IMG/VR virus record: IMGVR_UViG_3300010149_000002
Coordinates: 1-64,000 of that record
Length of the DNA: 64,000 nucleotides
Direction: 5' to 3' (one strand)
DNA from: a virus
The notes below the pieces were generated by a model. It did not search any database. It was not told the DNA's origin and worked only from the letters and a program-made list of their open reading frames with translations. The translations under genes were made by a program, and so were the position numbers. Below, one piece after another: positions 3,496 through 63,148 of the stretch. Numbering within the stretch: position 1 is the stretch's first letter; each line of letters begins with the position of its first letter.

Positions 3496-3511
3496 TACTA
3501 TAGTTGTTAAA
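3496..3511 (-). promoter_or_regulatory. Phage late promoter, copy 2 (capsid)
   Basis: Exact copy of the 16-nt motif, between the scaffold stop codon and the capsid start. This gives the capsid gene its own transcript besides read-through from the portal and scaffold operon. Confidence 0.75.
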
Positions 3512-5027: not shown

Positions 5028-5769
5028 TATAGCTCTCCTTTAGTTCATGTTTTTTCTGAGGAACTTGTATTTTATTTCTCCAACTATTATTACTATAAGT
5101 TCCATCAAAACTATTATTTTTTATTAAATTATGTTCTTCACTTAATACTTGTAAATTCCAAGAAACGTGTAGTCCACATACGTCTGGGTGATTAATAGGT
5201 ATTATGTGGTCTACGTTAAATCTATACCCTAATTGTTTTTCTAGATCTGCTGCTTTCTTGTAAAACTTCTTTAAAATCTTATAATCCTCTTTAAATGCTT
5301 TTTTACAAGCTTTTTTAATAAATCTTGTTTCGGCAATCCTCGCTCTACACCTATCGGGATGTCTTTTTTCATACCTTTTTCTTTTTTGTTTAATAAGATC
5401 TTTATTATTACTTGCCCATTTTTTATTTCTTATCTTTATTTTTTCTTTGTTTTCTATATAATATTTTGCATTTTTTTCTTTTATAATCTTTTTATTTTTT
5501 TCGCTATATTTCTTTTTATAGTCAGATGCATACTTTTTCTTACATTTATCTGAACAGTATTTTTTAGATTTTGTAAAACTTTTAAACTCACCGTCACATA
5601 TTTTACAACTTAAAGTAATAAGTTTTCTATTTTCTCTTTTTTTTGCAGCAACTTTAGACTTGTACTTTTTTCGATATTCCTTCTTTTTTATACTTCTACA
5701 ATCTTTACAATATTTAGAAAACCTTGAAGATTCATAATCTATGTTACATAATTTGCAATTATATTTCAT
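5020..5769 (-). CDS. HNH homing-type endonuclease in the head operon
   Basis: 249 aa. Two N-terminal zinc-finger-like Cys clusters (CKLC...YCKDC and CKIC...YCSDKC, residues about 5-80) are followed by a very Lys-rich linker (about 80-140) and a C-terminal HNH core: VDHIIP then GLHVSWNLQVLS then HNLIKNN. The first His, the Asn of WNLQ and the last His-Asn give the beta-beta-alpha metal fold that cuts DNA. It sits between genes for head proteins and overlaps both neighbours, typical of a free-standing mobile nuclease gene. It is markedly more A- and Lys-rich than its neighbours, a sign of separate origin. Confidence 0.85.
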   Translation of the reverse strand: MKYNCKLCNIDYESSRFSKYCKDCRSIKKKEYRKKYKSKVAAKKRENRKLITLSCKICDGEFKSFTKSKKYCSDKCKKKYASDYKKKYSEKNKKIIKEKNAKYYIENKEKIKIRNKKWASNNKDLIKQKRKRYEKRHPDRCRARIAETRFIKKACKKAFKEDYKILKKFYKKAADLEKQLGYRFNVDHIIPINHPDVCGLHVSWNLQVLSEEHNLIKNNSFDGTYSNNSWRNKIQVPQKKHELKESYNV

Positions 5770-6085
5770 ATTTATTTATATCCATCCATTTCTGTTGAGT
5801 CATGCCTTTTGGACATCTGCCAAAACTTCTAAACCGTTCTTCATCTTCAAATCTAACTCCCATTCCTTCTAGTCTGGTTTTTACAGACCTTTTTAGAACA
5901 TTTAGATTGTTAATGTTTTCCCCACCTCTATGTACATTCTCTGAGTTTATGTTTTTAATCTTATACGTTACATTTTCTAGATCTAAATATACCAAGTACT
6001 CTGCACCAGTTCTTTCTGATTTTAGAATCTTGTTAGAAACTACAACGCCTTCTTCTTTTGTGTTTTTATATCTAATTCTTTTCAT
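5759..6085 (-). CDS. Conserved-looking protein, unknown function
   Basis: 108 aa, basic, no membrane segment. It overlaps the portal stop codon at its start and the HNH gene at its end. The C-terminus reads FGRCPKGMTQQKWMDINKYEI. The N-terminal half (RYKNTKEEGVVVSNKILKS, then EYLVYLDLENVTYKI) looks like a small beta-barrel of the SH3 kind. I do not recognise the family. Its place between portal and scaffold suggests a head-maturation or minor virion role, which is inference. Confidence 0.6.
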   Translation of the reverse strand: MKRIRYKNTKEEGVVVSNKILKSERTGAEYLVYLDLENVTYKIKNINSENVHRGGENINNLNVLKRSVKTRLEGMGVRFEDEERFRSFGRCPKGMTQQKWMDINKYEI

Positions 6086-8201: not shown

Positions 8202-8217
8202 TACTATAGTTGTTAAA
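8202..8217 (-). promoter_or_regulatory. Phage late promoter, copy 3 (portal)
   Basis: Exact 16-nt late motif in the 110-bp gap between the TerL stop and the portal start. It drives the portal-scaffold segment. Confidence 0.75.
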
Positions 8218-8292: not shown

Positions 8293-9777
8293 TCAATTCT
8301 TTTTACGATTCATTATCGTATCCATTAATTCCTGCAACTTACCTGCCTTTGGTTTATGTAAGCTCCTGAAAATACCCGGACCTTTCATTTCATTATAGTC
8401 ATCTGGGAATGGATTTCTACCCTCGTTTACATTTCTTACTAGGTATATAAGAGCATCAAGTCCATCACAGTGACCGCCTCTTATTTCACCATTAGGTGTA
8501 TCTTTCAATTGGATAAATGATTTTCTATGTTTGTCCCATTGAGCATTTTCAACATGGTATCTTAAGTGTTTACACCTTTCATGTATTTCGATCTTACCTT
8601 GATGTACCCATAATCTAACTTGGTTTATCTGGGCTTCTTTATTGTCTTTTTTAGTTGCAACAAAATGTAGATCATGTAATCTAACTAAATCGTTAATAAG
8701 TTTTAGATCATTATCCATAACACGAATATAAGGCTTCTGTGCCATGTTAGTATCTTCTCTATGGAATCTAAGTTCTTCTTTTTCTTTGATCCTCTTTGCT
8801 AGAGCATCTGTTGTCATTTCTGGACCATTCATAACTAGTTCATCTGTTATTACTAATTTAGCTTTCATAAAATCATAGTACGAAAATAGTATTACTGTTA
8901 GATCCCTAAATCCAACATCACCCGATACATAAGCATCAAAGTGATCGGGCATTTTTAGTTCGCTTACCACTATTTCATGTTTCATCTGTTCAAATTCAGG
9001 TACTACAGTGTTTTCAGTAACCCTTGGTATTTCACACATATACTCGCATCTAAATTTAGGATTATCGACTCCACCTGCATATCTAGCTATGATTTTATCT
9101 CTTTTCCGATCAGATACCATCGGAGATTCAAATAAGGTATACTTTACGAGCCTATCCTCTGCTTCTAATGGGAAAACATATTCTGTGTGAAACTCATGTT
9201 GGGGGTTTTTATAATTAGGTGTAGAAGTTAGAATCAATTTACCATCTGTAGTGTCGGTTGTAGGCAACAAAATACTATCAACAATATACTCCAAATCGTC
9301 CATAAACCCTGCCTCATCGCATATTAGAAGCTGTGCATAACCACCACGAAGGTTCTCAGCATTACCATTATCCGTACCTGCAATTTGTATTTCAGAACCG
9401 TTTGGGAATTGATAAACTTTATCATTTGCCTTCCACATATCTTGTAAATTATACTCTTCTGGTGCATCTTCAAATATAGTCCTCATTATGGGCTTAATAA
9501 TCGTTGTCACCATTCTTTGCTTTGGACATGCGTATTTTACAATAGCGTTAGGTATTCTTATACAAAGTTCTACTGCTGCAAGACAATTAGTAAAAGATTT
9601 CCCAAAACGTCTTGATACCAATATACAAGATACGTCATGTTGTGCGTCCATTATGTTTCTATAGATATCTTCTTGTTTTCCTTTAAGCTTCCAAGAAAGT
9701 TCTCCCATACGCCATAGTTTATGTTTTGCTGCACGTTTTTCTGGGCTATCCTGTTCTTTCTTCTTGGGGACTTTCAC
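8293..9777 (-). CDS. terL: Terminase large subunit (packaging ATPase/nuclease)
   Basis: 494 aa. It pumps DNA into the prohead and cuts concatemers. The N-terminal ATPase shows Walker A SRRFGKS at residues 55-61 and Walker B LLICDEAG at about 150-157, with a coupling motif LTSTP near 183-187. The C-terminal nuclease (RNase H fold) shows a first acidic strand VSGDVGF with Asp287 and a late DALIYL segment. Start and stop are coupled to the neighbours (ATG overlaps the preceding stop). The length is normal for the family. Confidence 0.95.
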   Translation of the reverse strand: MKVPKKKEQDSPEKRAAKHKLWRMGELSWKLKGKQEDIYRNIMDAQHDVSCILVSRRFGKSFTNCLAAVELCIRIPNAIVKYACPKQRMVTTIIKPIMRTIFEDAPEEYNLQDMWKANDKVYQFPNGSEIQIAGTDNGNAENLRGGYAQLLICDEAGFMDDLEYIVDSILLPTTDTTDGKLILTSTPNYKNPQHEFHTEYVFPLEAEDRLVKYTLFESPMVSDRKRDKIIARYAGGVDNPKFRCEYMCEIPRVTENTVVPEFEQMKHEIVVSELKMPDHFDAYVSGDVGFRDLTVILFSYYDFMKAKLVITDELVMNGPEMTTDALAKRIKEKEELRFHREDTNMAQKPYIRVMDNDLKLINDLVRLHDLHFVATKKDNKEAQINQVRLWVHQGKIEIHERCKHLRYHVENAQWDKHRKSFIQLKDTPNGEIRGGHCDGLDALIYLVRNVNEGRNPFPDDYNEMKGPGIFRSLHKPKAGKLQELMDTIMNRKKN

Positions 9778-10136
9778 TATTTACCTTTAACTATACTAAA
9801 AAGCTCACCTACATCTTCGGTTTTAAGCTTATTTCCTTTAGGTTTCTTAGTGCTTTGACCCCTAATAAGCCTTAAATTCTTTATAAGTATGTCTAATTGT
9901 TGGGTATCATCCTTACCAAAAGTACCATTTTCGTACAGTTTTTTAAGGTGTCCTATGCCTTTTACGCATATATACTCCTCTTCTGATATAGAATCTAGTC
10001 CTTCTATCTCATCTTCTAGGTCATTATCAACAATAACTTGCTTCATTTTCTGGTTTTCTGACTCTAATTCTAGTATTTTTTTGTTAAGTGATGCAATTTC
10101 AAACTCTACATCACTATAATCTGTCTTATCTGACAT
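9777..10136 (-). CDS. Candidate terminase small subunit
   Basis: About 119 aa, acidic N-terminal coiled coil (FEIASLNKKILELESENQKMK) followed by a helical segment and a basic tail. It sits immediately upstream of terL and overlaps its start, the usual place of the small terminase, the DNA-recognition subunit. There is no clear helix-turn-helix, so the assignment is by position. The start at 10136 is chosen because AGGAG lies 6 nt upstream; a longer frame begins five codons earlier. Confidence 0.5.
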   Translation of the reverse strand: MSDKTDYSDVEFEIASLNKKILELESENQKMKQVIVDNDLEDEIEGLDSISEEEYICVKGIGHLKKLYENGTFGKDDTQQLDILIKNLRLIRGQSTKKPKGNKLKTEDVGELFSIVKGK

Positions 10137-10144
10137 AAAAACTC

Positions 10145-10429
10145 CTACCAAACTGCGTTTTGAGACTTTTCTCTTTGTTTTTGTGCCATATTGTACATTC
10201 CTACAACAGTTTTGACATCTTCAAGCTCTTTTTTGTGCTTTTCAATCTCTTCTTTGAATAATTTTGAATAATCTGGTGTTTTTCTTGAATCTAGGTACAA
10301 TTTATACCCACATAATGCTGAAAGTGCGATAATAATGATTGAATCTGCGATTTGAGGCTGTTTATAGTGTGATAATCCTAAAAACGATACCAATAATAAG
10401 TACGGTAGTACTTCTTTTAACTTTTCCAT
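10145..10429 (-). CDS. Small membrane protein with coiled-coil tail
   Basis: About 94 aa. Two hydrophobic segments, LPYLLLVSFLGLS (about 8-20) and ADSIIIIALSALCGYKLYL (about 28-46), are followed by a charged helical tail (KEEIEKHKKELEDVK). This is the plan of a class II holin or a small membrane-anchored virion protein. It is expressed late from promoter copy 4, next to packaging genes. AGGAG precedes the ATG at 10429. Holin is a reasonable guess, but the coiled-coil membrane protein at 48799-49125 is an equal candidate. Confidence 0.6.
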   Translation of the reverse strand: MEKLKEVLPYLLLVSFLGLSHYKQPQIADSIIIIALSALCGYKLYLDSRKTPDYSKLFKEEIEKHKKELEDVKTVVGMYNMAQKQREKSQNAVW

Positions 10430-11239: not shown

Positions 11240-11255
11240 TACTATAGTTGTTAAA
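11240..11255 (-). promoter_or_regulatory. Phage late promoter, copy 4 (left late operon)
   Basis: Exact 16-nt late motif. It starts the leftward packaging operon and lies only 10 bp from the -35 box of a rightward sigma-70-like promoter, so early and late transcription diverge from one short region. Confidence 0.75.
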
Positions 11256-14928: not shown

Positions 14929-15310
14929 TAAAATAATATTGTAGACACGCACTCTCACACCCTAGTGGACACATCACACACACTCAGAAACCCTCACCCC
15001 TCCCCTGCAAGAACCATGCCAAAAACTTGGCATCATAATTGCATAGCAAGATACATGCCAACTCTCCTTAAGAAAACTTTAGCTGACAAACATATATTGT
15101 TTACAAAGAATATACGCACATGCCTACTATGTTGGGCAATGGACAACATCGGACTAAACATATTCTATTGAACTGCCACATATAGTTGGCTTACAGAATA
15201 CCCTCTAGAATCCATTTAAAAGAATTATATGATACCAAGGTAGGGTAAAATCTAAATGGATTGTAGGGCTATTTATGGGACGATAAGACATTGTCAAGAA
15301 CTTTATTAAA

Positions 15311-15428
15311 ATGCGAGTAAAGTAAATGCGAGTTGACATTCAGGTTTTATGTCTTGTCAAGGGAATAATGCAATGTGAGTAATGAATCTAAATTGCTCGT
15401 ATTGATAAATGCGAGTTGTTGCTCACAT
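15311..15428 (+). promoter_or_regulatory. Iteron-like ATGYGAGT boxes, set 1
   Basis: Forward boxes ATGCGAGT at 15311, 15326 and 15409 and ATGTGAGT at 15373; inverted boxes at 15395 (GCTCGTAT) and 15421 (GCTCACAT). TTGACA (15333) and TGTCAA (15355) form a further dyad. This density suggests a binding array for a phage regulator or replication initiator. Confidence 0.6.
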
Positions 15429-15444
15429 TATAATTTGCTATATT
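15416..15444 (+). promoter_or_regulatory. Sigma-70-like promoter
   Basis: TTGTTG (15416-15421), 17-bp spacer, TATATT (15439-15444), in front of the gene at 15496. The -35 overlaps the last ATGCGAGT box, so a protein bound there would compete with RNA polymerase. Confidence 0.6.
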
Positions 15445-15495
15445 GAATGTATAACATAACGCAACACGTTATTAACTACTAAAGGAGATTTATTT

Positions 15496-15937: not shown

Positions 15938-16343
15938 TACATAAACACATAAACGGAATTTATTTAGTTCAATATCCTACCTTATAAAGTGCCATTTTCT
16001 TGTGGCGATCTATTAGTACACTTCATTACACTGAGCATGGATGCTTAAAGTGCCTTATATTTTGGGCATTAAAAGACTTACTAGTAGCCGAAAAATTCTA
16101 CTAATTTGGTCATTTAATACCTAAACACTTATTGTTTACTTTCATGTTTGGCTTTAGCTATCGAGCTATTTATATAGTCATTTTATTTAGAGATTGCATA
16201 CTAAATAAAACTTATTGAGGCGTTCGGCAAGGTACTTAATCTCTCGACACCTTGTGATATACTAAACAGATTTTGTTTAGTGAGGCTATCCTAGTCGGCT
16301 CTCTCATGCAATTCTTATGCCATTTTTTAACCGTCCTCAATAT
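15938..16343 (-). ncRNA. Candidate structured non-coding RNA from a late promoter
   Basis: About 400 nt without a supported gene on either strand, starting at late promoter copy 5. On the minus strand the first transcribed bases contain ATTGAGG (16341-16335) that pair with CCTCAAT (16220-16214), closing a multibranch domain holding stems CTAAACA/TGTTTAG (16262-16280) and CAAGGT/ACCTTG (16228-16254). A 10-bp hairpin TTTTATTTAG/CTAAATAAAA (16181-16210) follows, then TAGTAG/CTACTA, AGCAT/ATGCT and GCCA/TGGC hairpins down to about 15975. AAAGTGCC occurs twice on the plus strand. No family recognised. Confidence 0.6.
16181..16210 (-). terminator. Perfect 10-bp AT-rich hairpin within the non-coding region
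   Basis: TTTTATTTAG and CTAAATAAAA separated by a 10-nt loop, immediately after the closed multibranch domain. It may end or stabilise the leftward RNA; the stem is AT-rich, with no following T run, so its role as terminator is uncertain. Confidence 0.35.
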
Positions 16344-16359
16344 TACTATAGTTGTTAAA
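16344..16359 (-). promoter_or_regulatory. Phage late promoter, copy 5 (no gene downstream)
   Basis: Exact 16-nt late motif, the only copy inside the early region and the only one not followed by a minus-strand gene. It faces the structured non-coding region and, beyond it, runs antisense to the genes at 15496-15937. Confidence 0.75.
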
Positions 16360-16582
16360 TAATCTTTATTTGTCAAGTTATTTATTAAACCATATAAATT
16401 TTATCACAGAATATACGAATATGCCAACTATTTTTGTAAGGCTAATTTGTTCTCTAAGAGCTTTAAAAGTTTTTTGAATACTAGGTTAAGGATAAAATCT
16501 AAATGGATTCTAGCCTATATTGTGTGCCTTATAGGGCTATATAGTAAGATTGTTTAGAGTGTTTTTAGTCCGATAAAATCAA

Positions 16583-16675
16583 ATGTGAGTTGACATTCAG
16601 TTTATACATAGTGTCAAGAAAAAAATGAAATGTGAGCTTTATATATCATTTTGCTCGCATTCTCTAAAAGTGAGT
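16583..16675 (+). promoter_or_regulatory. Iteron-like ATGYGAGT boxes, set 2
   Basis: ATGTGAGT at 16583, ATGTGAGC at 16630, inverted GCTCGCAT at 16653 and AGTGAGT near 16669, with TTGACA (16590) and TGTCAA (16612) kept as in set 1. Confidence 0.55.
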
Positions 16676-16684
16676 AAATATATA

Positions 16685-16713
16685 TTGAATAATCATATTT
16701 AATTTGCTATAAT
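16685..16713 (+). promoter_or_regulatory. Sigma-70-like promoter
   Basis: TTGAAT (16685-16690), 17-bp spacer, TATAAT (16708-16713), 37 nt upstream of the gene at 16750. It is the counterpart of the promoter at 15416. Confidence 0.7.
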
Positions 16714-16749
16714 GAATATAGAGATTAACGCAATAAATAAAGGAATTAC

Positions 16750-18985: not shown

Positions 18986-19202
18986 ATATGAGCAAATAAA
19001 ATTAGTTGAGGAGTCAGATTTTGTACTAAATGATATTTATTTAGGTTATTCAGAGTTTTGGGACAAGGTAAACGAAATTGATTTAGACCCTGAAAAACTT
19101 ACATTGTATGAAAAAGATATAGACATACTATATGATGCTCTAGTAGACTATATAAAGTTTAGAAGTAATTATAAAAATACATTAAAGGAGCTTATAAAAT
19201 GA
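18978..19202 (+). CDS. Small acidic early protein
   Basis: 74 aa, [23 protein letters not shown]..., acidic, helical. The ATG at 18978 overlaps the previous stop; an in-frame GTG four codons earlier is possible. It ends 4 nt into the pentapeptide-repeat gene. No family recognised. Confidence 0.6.
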
Positions 19203-19972
19203 TACAAATTAAAAATAGATTTACAGGTAATGTTATTAGAGAAGTTGAAAGTCTTAGTGAAGCTAATCTTAGGGGAGCTAATCTTAGGGGAGCTGATCTT
19301 AGTGAAGCTGATCTTAGGGGAGCTAATCTTAGGGGAGCTAATCTTAGGGGAGCTAATCTTAGTGAAGCTGATCTTAGTGAAGCTGATCTTAGTGAAGCTA
19401 ATCTTAGGGGAGCTGATCTTAGTGAAGCTAATCTTAGTGAAGCTAATCTTAGGGGAGCTAATCTTAGGGGAGCTGATCTTAGTGAAGCTGATCTTAGGGG
19501 AGCTAATCTTATGGTAGCTAATCTTAGTGAAGCTAATCTTAGTGAAGCTAATCTTAGTGAAGCTGATCTTATGGTAGCTAATCTTAGTGAAGCTAATCTT
19601 AGTGAAGCTAATCTTAGGGGAGCTAATCTTAGGGGAGCTGATCTTAGTGAAGCTGATCTTAGGGGAGCTAATCTTAGGGGAGCTAATCTTAGTGAAGCTG
19701 ATCTTAGTGAAGCTGATCTTAGTGAAGCTAATCTTAGGGGAGCTGATCTCGAAAAATGTAAAGGTATTCTATCATTTACTTGTGAAAAGCATTTAGGAAT
19801 ATATTTTAAATACGATAATGAATATTATTTTAAGATTGGTTGCATGACTAATACTGCTAAATGGTGGTTAGATAACTATAAAATAGTTGGTAAGATTGAA
19901 GAATATAGCGATAATGATATTAAAAAACATGGTATTATTTTAGAAGCTTATAGTAAAATAGAATTAGAATAA
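19199..19972 (+). CDS. Pentapeptide-repeat protein
   Basis: 257 aa. About 33 consecutive pentapeptides A(N/D)L(R/S)(G/E), roughly residues 20-184, build the right-handed quadrilateral beta-helix of this family. A globular tail of about 70 residues follows ([14 protein letters not shown]... ending [11 protein letters not shown]). In the best-studied members (MfpA, Qnr) the helix mimics DNA and binds gyrase; whether this one does is unknown. The DNA is nearly pure 15-bp repeats with only two variable codons, and larger blocks recur three times, so it has recently expanded by duplication. Confidence 0.9.
19259..19750 (+). repeat. 15-bp tandem repeats inside the pentapeptide gene
   Basis: About 33 copies of AGCT(A/G)ATCTTAG(GGG/TGA). 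A block coding for [20 protein letters not shown] occurs three times. All three forward frames are open through much of the tract because the unit is a multiple of three. Confidence 0.95.
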
Positions 19973-43968: not shown

Positions 43969-44493
43969 TTGACTGAAAAGAACAAAAACATAATAAACCT
44001 CATTGGTGATATTGATGATGATTTTTTTAGAAAACTTGCAGTTGGTATTAGTGAAGCAAACCAAAAAAAAGATTTAGAGATAGTTTTAATGAGTGATGGT
44101 GGAAGTGTAAGTGTGGCAAGAGGTGCATACGACCTCATCAGGACATTTGAAAGTAATGTTTACATAAAATGTTTTGGTGAGGTTTCATCCTCTGCAACAT
44201 TGGTCCTACAAGCCGCAGATTTCCGTATAATGTATCCTAATGCAAAACTAATGATACATGTCGGGGAAAATGGCGGAGGAGGCTCAGGGCATCCTCGTAA
44301 CGATGAGAGGCTTCAAGAACAGAACAAGATAGATGAGACTTGGATGGAAGATATATACCTTAAAAAAATAAGAGAAAAAAAGCCAAGATTCACTAGGAAA
44401 AAGATAAAAGATATGTTAGAGTATGATACATACCTAAATCCAAAGGAGTCTTTGGAGTTTGGTTTAATTGACGAAATAGGAGTTGTTAAATGA
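43969..44493 (+). CDS. ClpP-like serine protease (cytoplasmic, TTG start)
   Basis: 174 aa. Aligns with ClpP through GEVSSSATLVLQAA (Ser74 at the nucleophile position), LMIHVGENG (His97) and EYDTYLNPKESLEFGLIDEI (Asp154), so the full Ser-His-Asp triad is present. Length is close to mature ClpP. No ATPase partner is encoded nearby, so it would need host ClpX/ClpA or act alone. It is not in the head-gene block, unlike capsid maturation proteases. TTG at 43969 follows a weak ribosome site. Confidence 0.8.
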   Translation: MTEKNKNIINLIGDIDDDFFRKLAVGISEANQKKDLEIVLMSDGGSVSVARGAYDLIRTFESNVYIKCFGEVSSSATLVLQAADFRIMYPNAKLMIHVGENGGGGSGHPRNDERLQEQNKIDETWMEDIYLKKIREKKPRFTRKKIKDMLEYDTYLNPKESLEFGLIDEIGVVK

Positions 44494-44864
44494 TGAAGTG
44501 TGTAATTACAAGCGAAGAGACAAAGAATAAGACAAATAACTTTCCTTTATCTAGAAAAGGTAGGCTAATGTTGATTGACATTACAAATAGATATAATGAT
44601 AAACTAAAAGACAAGTTTATAGAGAGTTTTATTGAAAAGTCTGGTAATGAATCAGAAGAAACTATAAAAGCAGTATCTAAGTTAGCACCCAAGATGAGTA
44701 AACACGACATGTTAAAGATGCTTGATAAAGAGTCTGAGGAAGATTTGTTTGCAAAGTTTGATAATGTTGAAGAAGATAAACCCGCATTTGAAAAAGCAGT
44801 TGATGCTAAGTTAGAACAAAATAAAAAAGAAGCAGATTTAATTGAGGAATCTAATGACCAATAA
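44490..44864 (+). CDS. Acidic helical protein
   Basis: 124 aa, MMKCVITSEETKNKTNNFPLSR... then acidic helices. The N-terminal CVITSEETKNK...LSRKGR reads like a short metal- or nucleotide-site segment seen in other phage proteins, but I cannot name a family. Overlaps ClpP-like stop and next start. Confidence 0.55.
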   Translation: MMKCVITSEETKNKTNNFPLSRKGRLMLIDITNRYNDKLKDKFIESFIEKSGNESEETIKAVSKLAPKMSKHDMLKMLDKESEEDLFAKFDNVEEDKPAFEKAVDAKLEQNKKEADLIEESNDQ

Positions 44865-45675
44865 AATAGATCAAGCAGAACTTCTTGCAGATCAAGAGGA
44901 CATGGGATTAGGGTTACATGAGGCTCCTGATAAACCACAACACTCTGGTAATGTAGCATTTTCTAAAGCTATGCTTGAATGTATACCTGATGAAGAAGTT
45001 CTACAGGAAGTTAAAGATAAGAATCCATTTCAATACAAATATGAGGTTAAGGTAAAGAAAGTGCCTAAGAAGCTCAAGAATGTTGCAGGATTGAAAGAAG
45101 GTCTTATAGGTAGGGTTGTAGAGGTTCTAAGTGATAAAGCTGTTATGGTGGATTTCTGGACTAAGACAAGTCCTGCTAAGTTTCCTATGAGGAGTTTATA
45201 TTTAGAGCTACATAAAACTAAAGAACAGGTTGAGATTGATGCAGGGATAATACCTGAAAAAGAGGTTATACAACCTATTAAAGAGGTTGAACCTGTTAAG
45301 GTTGCTCCTGTAAAGTTTGACCAAGGCAAACCTAGAATGGATCTAATTAGACCTGAGTTTACATTAGCTATTGGAGAGGCTTTGGCATACGGTGCTGAGA
45401 AGTACTCTGAAAAGCAAGGTGAAATGCCTAACTATTTAAAAGGTAATGGCTTCAATTATAGTAAGATTGTAGGAAGCCTTGAAAGGCATCTTGCACAGTG
45501 GAAAATGGGAGTAGATATTGATGATGAAAGTGGATTACATCATTTACAGTTAGCAGCAGCTAATTTACATTTTCTTTTAACTTATGAGTTGACCGATAAA
45601 GGGATAGATGATAGAGTTAAATTAGGATCTAAAAAAAGGAAGGCTAGTGAAGAAGGAGCCGAGAAAGGACTATAA
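44854..45675 (+). CDS. dATP/dGTP-diphosphohydrolase-like (DUF5664) protein
   Basis: About 273 aa. C-terminal domain (about 150-255): KFDQGKPRMDLIRPEFTL, EALAYGAEKYS, NYSKIVGSLERHLAQWKMG and DDESGLHHLQLAAANLHFLL match the phage dATP/dGTP diphosphohydrolase N-terminal (DUF5664) family. N-terminal half contains an SH3-like segment (GLIGRVVEVLSDKAVMVDFW). It may adjust purine deoxynucleotide pools with RNR and MazG. The start at 44854 follows GAGG. Confidence 0.75.
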   Translation: MTNKIDQAELLADQEDMGLGLHEAPDKPQHSGNVAFSKAMLECIPDEEVLQEVKDKNPFQYKYEVKVKKVPKKLKNVAGLKEGLIGRVVEVLSDKAVMVDFWTKTSPAKFPMRSLYLELHKTKEQVEIDAGIIPEKEVIQPIKEVEPVKVAPVKFDQGKPRMDLIRPEFTLAIGEALAYGAEKYSEKQGEMPNYLKGNGFNYSKIVGSLERHLAQWKMGVDIDDESGLHHLQLAAANLHFLLTYELTDKGIDDRVKLGSKKRKASEEGAEKGL

Positions 45676-47162: not shown

Positions 47163-47918
47163 ATGAAATTAATTTTATCGCTACTAATGGTTTGTAGCTT
47201 CTGTTTTGGAAAGGTAATCAATCTTACTGAAGAAAACAGCATTAACTTTAACAATAAATTTGATGGTCAGTTTGTTGCTAAAAAACAAATTGAAGCAGCT
47301 AACAAATGTTATACAAACGAAGGTAGTGATATCTATGTTGTATTATATACACCGGGGGGATCAGTACAAGCAGGTCAATTATTCTTTGATACTCTAAATG
47401 CTTTACCCTGTAACTTTCACACAATTACGATTTTCGCTGCCTCAATGGGATATCAAACAGTTCAAAATCTCAAGAATAGGTATATCCTACCGTCTGGAGT
47501 TTTAATGAGCCATAGAGCTAGTCTTAGCGGTGTAAGAGGTGAATTAGGAGGAGAGCTAGATAGTATCTTAGACTTCTTTAAACAAAGTATAAAAGAACTA
47601 GAAGTTACAGCATCTACTAGAGTTGGCATTAGTTTAGAAGATTACCAAAAAGCAATTTCAGATGAACTATGGATGACAGGAAACCAAGCTGTAAACACAA
47701 AGCATGCAGATGAGGTTGTATTAGTTAAATGTGATAAAAACTTTAAAGGTAGTTATGTACAGAAGTTTATGTCATTTTTTGGACCAGTAAACGTAGAGTT
47801 TGCTAATTGTCCTTTAATCGTATCTCCACTAAGTATTAAAAGCGGTAATCTTAAGATTATCAACCATGTAAATGATTTTTACACAAACATTCACAATTAC
47901 ATAACATTGGAGTTATAA
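47163..47918 (+). CDS. Exported ClpP-like serine protease
   Basis: 251 aa. Signal peptide (MKLILSLLMVCSFCFG) then a ClpP/SppA-like fold: YTPGGSVQAGQLFFD, FAASMGYQTV (Ser94), LMSHRASLSG (His117) and SDELWMTGNQAV (Asp167), giving the Ser-His-Asp triad. It is a paralogue in design of the cytoplasmic ClpP-like gene at 43969 but sent through the inner membrane. It has its own promoter. Possible jobs: degrade periplasmic or membrane proteins, or aid lysis or exclusion; none is shown. Confidence 0.8.
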   Translation: MKLILSLLMVCSFCFGKVINLTEENSINFNNKFDGQFVAKKQIEAANKCYTNEGSDIYVVLYTPGGSVQAGQLFFDTLNALPCNFHTITIFAASMGYQTVQNLKNRYILPSGVLMSHRASLSGVRGELGGELDSILDFFKQSIKELEVTASTRVGISLEDYQKAISDELWMTGNQAVNTKHADEVVLVKCDKNFKGSYVQKFMSFFGPVNVEFANCPLIVSPLSIKSGNLKIINHVNDFYTNIHNYITLEL

Positions 47919-57313: not shown

Positions 57314-57329
57314 TACTATAGTTGTTAAA
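57314..57329 (-). promoter_or_regulatory. Phage late promoter, copy 6 (ejection-protein operon)
   Basis: Exact 16-nt late motif, 32 nt upstream of the ATG at 57282, just behind the stop of the small structural gene at 57339. Confidence 0.75.
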
Positions 57330-63132: not shown

Positions 63133-63148
63133 TACTATAGTTGTTAAA
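63133..63148 (-). promoter_or_regulatory. Phage late promoter, copy 7
   Basis: Exact 16-nt late motif, 31 nt upstream of the ATG at 63102. It starts the tail operon. Confidence 0.75.

Follow-up and report, generated by a model that had tools for sequence, protein, structure and literature searches.

A non-coding RNA gene of ~400 nt (15938..16345, minus strand) is carried by an AT-rich tailed phage, within the 64,000-nucleotide stretch of its 78,841-bp IMG/VR viral record that was analysed here (the window). The gene contains no ORF and has syntenic homologues in two related records, L072 and L078, its ends being inferred. Its 5' domain recurs in ~33 distinct IMG/VR phage records, including at least 30 uncultured viruses besides the window's, where its helices are maintained by compensatory base changes. 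That the locus encodes a structured RNA under selection is shown by covariation and, to the extent that comparison of sequences can establish it, is close to certain. The RNA class is new, in that no family in the RNA libraries searched corresponds to it.

The phage genes recognised in the window encode a portal, a T5-like large terminase, a family-A DNA polymerase, RNR and rIIA, together with an ERF annealing protein. Genes run rightward between ~11.3 and 48.8 kb, the remainder of the window consisting of leftward structural genes, and GC skew switches near 11 and 49 kb, at the turns in gene direction and not at the RNA. The large terminase (TerL, 8293-9777) gave a weak Terminase_6N match, slightly under the cutoff, and aligns with T5-like large terminases. 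Other features of the window were recorded alongside. An early intergenic block occurs in two diverged copies (77-82%; 15314-15464 and 16571-16733) with TTGACATTCAG and TTTGCTATAATGAATATA, one ahead of each early gene cluster, and these are likely early promoters. A hairpin, ATGCCAAAAACnTGGCAT, followed by TTGCAT is conserved between the window (15014-15046) and L072 (4106-4140), and overlaps a sigma-54-like TGGCAT-N5-TTGCAT element. A repetitive gene (19199-19972) shares 67% DNA identity with pentapeptide-repeat genes of Microcystis phage and represents the sole DNA match between the region of the RNA and isolate phages. The early block includes two genes resembling Clp proteases (43969-44493 and 47163-47918), possible maturation proteases, and 44842-45675 encodes a dATP/dGTP diphosphohydrolase domain (PF18909), a family tied to altered DNA bases in some phages. 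The only tRNA-like match in the window, 21 kb from the RNA, is a 105-nt hit to RF00005 (37641-37745, 50.9 bits), which was not reported by ARAGORN and may be a tRNA that has an insert or a long variable arm.

The RNA is preceded by a late-promoter motif, TTTAACAACTATAGTAATAT (16340..16359, minus strand), directed leftward. Exact matches to the 16-mer TTTAACAACTATAGTA number seven across the window, every one on the minus strand; dinucleotide shuffles gave none. Six of them (63133-63148, 57314-57329, 11240-11255, 8202-8217, 3496-3511 and 1917-1932) lie mostly directly ahead of leftward structural genes, and the seventh, at 16359-16344, falls within the rightward early block and faces ~400 nt devoid of genes. 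This arrangement, which the initial annotation had pointed out, was confirmed, no ORF of at least 50 aa being present in 15938-16359. A late motif at fixed spacing before helix P1 was taken as the criterion for a late-transcribed RNA and was met in eight distal copies, including the window's, where it stands 15-21 nt ahead of the 5' domain. It is therefore likely that the RNA is made late in this phage, an inference drawn from a promoter motif common to structural genes, with no transcript data. The factor reading the motif was not found; a search for a single-subunit RNA polymerase gave no PF00940 match, and neither did its positive control.

A protein-coding reading was rejected, as the longest ORF within the RNA on either strand spans 34 aa; moreover, no ORF position is common to the relatives. 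The predicted fold of the RNA surpassed that of every one of 100 dinucleotide shuffles (z -2.74). Its 5' domain starts a few nt past the motif and ends near 16211, and its 3' part runs on to ~15940, the exact 3' end not being fixed; no terminator-like site was found after the RNA.

The 5' domain, D1 (16209..16343; all coordinates of the RNA refer to the minus strand), is common to the whole family and comprises helices P1-P5 around a conserved junction. P1 (8 bp) pairs UAUUGAGG (16335..16342) with CCUCAAUA (16213..16220) and, in pair counts from a 39-sequence alignment, shows two-sided changes in seven of its eight pairs. P2 (3 bp, CCG/CGG) joins 16331..16333, which reads CGG in the window and CCG in most relatives, to 16225..16227 through C-G to G-C swaps, with 99% of cells paired. 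The conserved single-stranded A-rich strand that follows, UUAAAAAAU (16322..16330), contains a U, an AAA and a following A that do not vary in a 26-sequence alignment and reach at least 95% conservation across 39 sequences. The P3 hairpin (16297..16321) is GGC...GCC here and GCC...GGC in relatives, with two-sided changes in all three pairs; P4 (GAUA/UAUC, with an inner CUAAAC/GUUUAG hairpin; 16256..16290) shows them in 4/4 pairs and is 94% paired, and P5 (CAAGGU/ACCUUG; 16228..16254) in 5/6 pairs, being 95% paired. The P5 loop, GUCGAGAGAUUAAGU, is well conserved in both the 26- and the 39-sequence alignments, and single strands are invariant or near-invariant at the A before P2, at UNAAANA after P2 and at the AA after P2' in AGCGGAANGC. 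Such conservation in the junction and the P5 loop hints, as judged from the alignments, at a tertiary core or a binding site. The window satisfies the family criterion, namely P1-P5, the GA-CCG-UNAAANA strand and the AGCGGAANGC strand kept by covariation across 36 distinct sequences, and matches covariance model R3 at E ~4e-28.

The final D1 alignment comprised 39 sequences, 36 of them distinct, with a median identity of 50% and a minimum of 30%. Standard pairs occupied 93.4% of D1 pair cells in the distinct sequences, compared with 30-42% when partners were slid, two-sided changes affected 21 of the 24 D1 pairs, and the covariation score was 0.77 vs 0.17 in shuffles. These statistics are somewhat biased towards the model, since the alignments were fitted to it; compensatory changes were already visible in the first counts, which came from sequence-only MAFFT alignments. 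Between the window and L072 alone, GGC/GCC is exchanged for GCC/GGC and AAGGU/ACCUU for UACGA/UCGUA, and RNAalifold predicted 55 pairs, 16 of them changed on both sides. The initial annotation had proposed that the phage makes a structured RNA from a dedicated late promoter and that AUUGAGG and CCUCAAU in this RNA close a multibranch domain containing further stems; P1 and the inner stems proved real, their pairs being kept by compensatory change, and the proposal as a whole is supported by such changes in relatives, with no transcript seen. Its analogies with pRNA and with RNAs that act on polymerase or ribosome are neither demonstrated nor ruled out. Homologues lacking compensatory changes would have refuted it, and the opposite outcome was obtained for P1-P5. 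The covariance model that it had suggested building from homologous phage regions was built and recovered the 5' domain in the records counted above.

The 3' domain is more variable across the family than the 5' domain. It opens with a 10-bp hairpin (16181..16210), which had been described as perfect and is so in the window, where 16181-16190 pairs with 16201-16210; the hairpin is shorter in L072 and L078 and absent in distant relatives. Comparison with L072 supports three further helices (16065..16167), P6 (AGCU/AGCU), P7 (AAACA/UGUUU) and P8 (GGUAUUAA.../...UUAAUGCC), in which every pair is kept, six with two-sided changes; an A-U to U-A swap in P6 occurs in two further relatives. The motif AUUCCUGUGC is common to four other members, 85-97 nt past the 5' domain. 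RNAalifold on seven 3' domains, and on the 3'-terminal part, gave a weak consensus owing to poor alignment.

Homologues were gathered by several routes. L072 was reached by scanning IMG/VR for the bare promoter motif, and its RNA shares 70% identity with the window's over 308 nt (blastn, E 6e-22), with the same synteny, orientation and promoter; L078 holds a third close copy in the syntenic position. Further members were obtained by a scan with a terminase alignment and by nhmmer with these three RNAs (L090/L091, E 7e-16; L139, 4e-10; L136, 1e-8; L116, 0.001). Covariance model R1 was built on the 5' domain, and its successors R2 and R3 recognised members outside their training alignments: G007 (E 8e-11) and G005 (E 7e-8) with R2, and G051 (E 3e-14) with R3. 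In phage records, R3 left a wide gap in E values, from 1e-13 to 1.6e-3. Two DNA patterns over the invariant strands yielded 12 new records, all matching R3 at E <=1e-11; a pattern extended across the promoter had no matches, and a search via the SprT-like neighbour gene found no relatives. A pattern scan of genome contigs gave 11 matches that were mostly apparently coding, without P1 and weakly scored by the model, and these were judged to be chance (L185 was not inspected). R3 detected no D1 in the related 67-90 kb phages G009, G014, G016 and G030, so that either some of them can do without the RNA or it has diverged. Many records are fragments, so absences carry little weight.

No Rfam 15 family matched the RNA at gathering score, either in the window or in relatives, the families covered including pRNA, ROOL, GOLLD, OLE, group I/II introns, RNase P, tmRNA, 6S and HEARO, and permissive Rfam searches returned only sub-threshold chance matches; the earlier impression, formed by eye, that no known family fits is thereby upheld. 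A group I/II intron, considered for the GACUAG and GAAAG motifs, was rejected for want of an Rfam match. BLASTN of six RNA variants against 50,697 isolate-phage records found nothing credible, and a short GC-rich match in isolate phages (H41) was unrecognised by the model. R3 had no hits at E 1e-4 in 299 Pseudomonadota genomes under stricter filters, and the DNA pattern had none in 398 genomes from the phylum of a Neobacillus MAG. These negatives are limited, blastn having little power on RNAs of this kind and few genomes having been sampled. A literature search on large phage RNAs returned matches concerning ROOL, GOLLD and OLE.

Most members of the window's clade carry the RNA on the terminase strand, 5.4-10.6 kb upstream of that gene and usually behind the same late motif. 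A paralogous RNA, whose promoters are sigma-70-like and which has a covarying 3' domain of its own, was also observed ~2 kb upstream of the terminase (L091 7928-8032, L136 8026-8130, L115 3642-3746, L180 2945-2841, L116 6035-6171, L102 560-696). A copy stands 2.0-2.6 kb upstream of TerL in five records and directly downstream of it in one; in G012, G013, G367, G368 and G370 a second copy, tens of kb distant, is encoded on the other strand, and up to two copies per genome were seen. Sigma-70-like promoters were found at the TerL-proximal and some other copies. In the tree of the domain, the TerL-proximal copies group as a separate clade, which implies an old duplication, and they have a 3' structure of their own; of the 43 pairs predicted in their full-length fold, 22 carry two-sided changes. 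Four other lineages have a gene for an ssDNA-annealing protein at a distance of 0.3-1.6 kb from the RNA and on the same strand, the proteins belonging to different families (L251 6218, Erf; L245 2580, Erf; L258 3453, RecT; L174 6606, Sak4-like); L243 and L244 have no annealing protein among the neighbours scanned. Another, near-identical RNA type was noted in L164, L165, L166, L167, L242 and L250, phages whose TerL is related; inspection of L238 and L242 placed it between large, apparently late structural genes of the opposite strand. The occurrence of one fold at different loci, in different orientations and behind different promoters argues for a trans-acting RNA, and it is very likely, by inference from these copies, that the RNA is a gene of its own acting in trans.

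The mechanism that we propose starts from a phage-type late promoter, from which an independent non-coding RNA gene would yield a leftward transcript of ~400 nt. Its 5' part would fold into a multibranch domain in which P1 closes P2, and P2 in turn encloses P3, P4 and P5 around the invariant A-rich junction, the more variable 3' domain following. Acting in trans, the RNA may be built into a phage ribonucleoprotein as its scaffold or as one of its subunits. The binding platform would most likely be the conserved 5' domain, with the 3' domain tailoring the RNA to each phage or copy; in the window phage it would work late, during virion production. Taken as a whole, a trans-acting RNA scaffold of a phage ribonucleoprotein, late in this phage, is the best explanation and one that we hold with some confidence, in the absence of transcript data; the ribonucleoprotein step in itself is an inference and remains tentative. 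The partner and the step served (assembly or packaging, recombination, host takeover) are inferred, not shown, and no single partner or process rises above unlikely. A phyletic profile over 11 genomes placed two small late proteins of the window (9777-10151 and 5759-6085) in 7/7 RNA-bearing and 1/4 RNA-lacking genomes, and no protein partner could be named from it, candidates being confounded with relatedness.

Several more specific roles can be weighed against the same observations. The late promoter, and the position of the RNA on the TerL strand 5-11 kb upstream across TerLs ~40-80% identical, would suit a packaging or assembly RNA joining the terminase-portal motor or the prohead as phi29 pRNA does, as would the second copies, which sometimes stand either 2.0-2.6 kb ahead of TerL or right after it, and the four TerL-proximal copies checked, each directly preceding a gene with its own late motif. 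However, the RNA also occurs on contigs (mostly fragments) in which no relative of the window TerL was found, some copies have sigma-70-like promoters, and pRNA gave no Rfam match; TerL relatives of the T5 type package DNA with no RNA known to take part, and we consider this role distinctly unlikely. An RNA taking part in recombination-dependent replication, for example with an ssDNA-annealing protein, is suggested by the neighbouring annealing-protein genes of different families in the four lineages and by the ERF gene of the window phage, but that gene is 12 kb from the RNA, whose copy there has a late promoter, L243 and L244 lack such a neighbour within the range scanned, and the association was spotted post hoc, leaving this role rather improbable. 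Promoter classes varying among copies, as expected of early and late functions, and conserved unpaired nucleotides suggestive of a protein target would instead fit an RNA that binds host RNA polymerase, ribosome or RNase to favour phage expression; this is unlikely as well, given that the RNA has no likeness to 6S or other Rfam RNAs and that no specific target motif was found.

The RNA may also need no protein, either building an RNA-only assembly such as a ROOL/GOLLD-like cage or acting as a ribozyme. Its size, multiple domains, phage origin, invariant junction nucleotides and lack of an obvious partner are compatible with this, yet it is shorter than ROOL and GOLLD, has neither a tRNA island nearby nor an Rfam match, and no covarying intermolecular element was identified, so that we give the idea little credence. 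Least tenable is a cis element or antisense read-through, whether the promoter mainly yields RNA antisense to the early operon on its left or the region acts at the DNA level, for example in replication origin or packaging: the transcript would indeed be directed into opposite-strand early genes with no terminator-like site after it, but RNA-level covariation spans the entire 5' domain, the same RNA occurs at other loci and orientations, and the GC-skew turns lie elsewhere, which makes this reading highly improbable. The scaffold reading remains the preferred one. A fold retained through such deep divergence (down to 30% identity with >90% of model pairs kept) in dozens of uncultured phages points to an unknown RNA-based function in infection, and the alignment, covariance model and promoter make the function of the RNA directly testable.

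Among known systems, 6S and other RNAs acting on host polymerase share with the RNA only the conceivable property of being structured and trans-acting; the window RNA lacks a long open-promoter-like hairpin and has no Rfam match to them. The combination of a conserved scaffold and a variable part recalls HEARO and omega RNAs, the guide scaffolds of nucleases, although there is again no Rfam match and no IscB/TnpB gene was recognised beside the window RNA. ROOL and GOLLD had already shown that large RNAs without an assigned function exist in phages; like them, the present RNA is phage-encoded and large, with an elaborate covarying structure, its own gene and no known function, and GOLLD has been reported to increase during phage lysis (PMC12286853). 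It differs from both in length (~400 nt vs ~600-800), in having no Rfam match to either and in lacking the adjacent tRNA island near which they reside, and its conserved part is the 5' domain, as opposed to the 3' region in GOLLD. With phi29 pRNA (Rfam Phage_pRNA) it has in common a short phage RNA, paired ends, a junction and a suggested role in virion assembly, but there is no sequence or covariance match, it is larger, its junction is different and it reaches up to two copies per genome; the window phage has a T4/T5-like terminase where phi29 has gp16, and the criterion of a phi29-like packaging ATPase was unmet, TerL aligning as described. That this undescribed class functions within a phage nucleoprotein machine as one of its working subunits, in virion assembly or in recombination-replication, is a slim prospect; if true, it would be the second such case beside phi29 pRNA, extending across several unrelated uncultured lineages, and identification of a partner would show whether phi29 is alone among phages in using RNA as a component of a machine.
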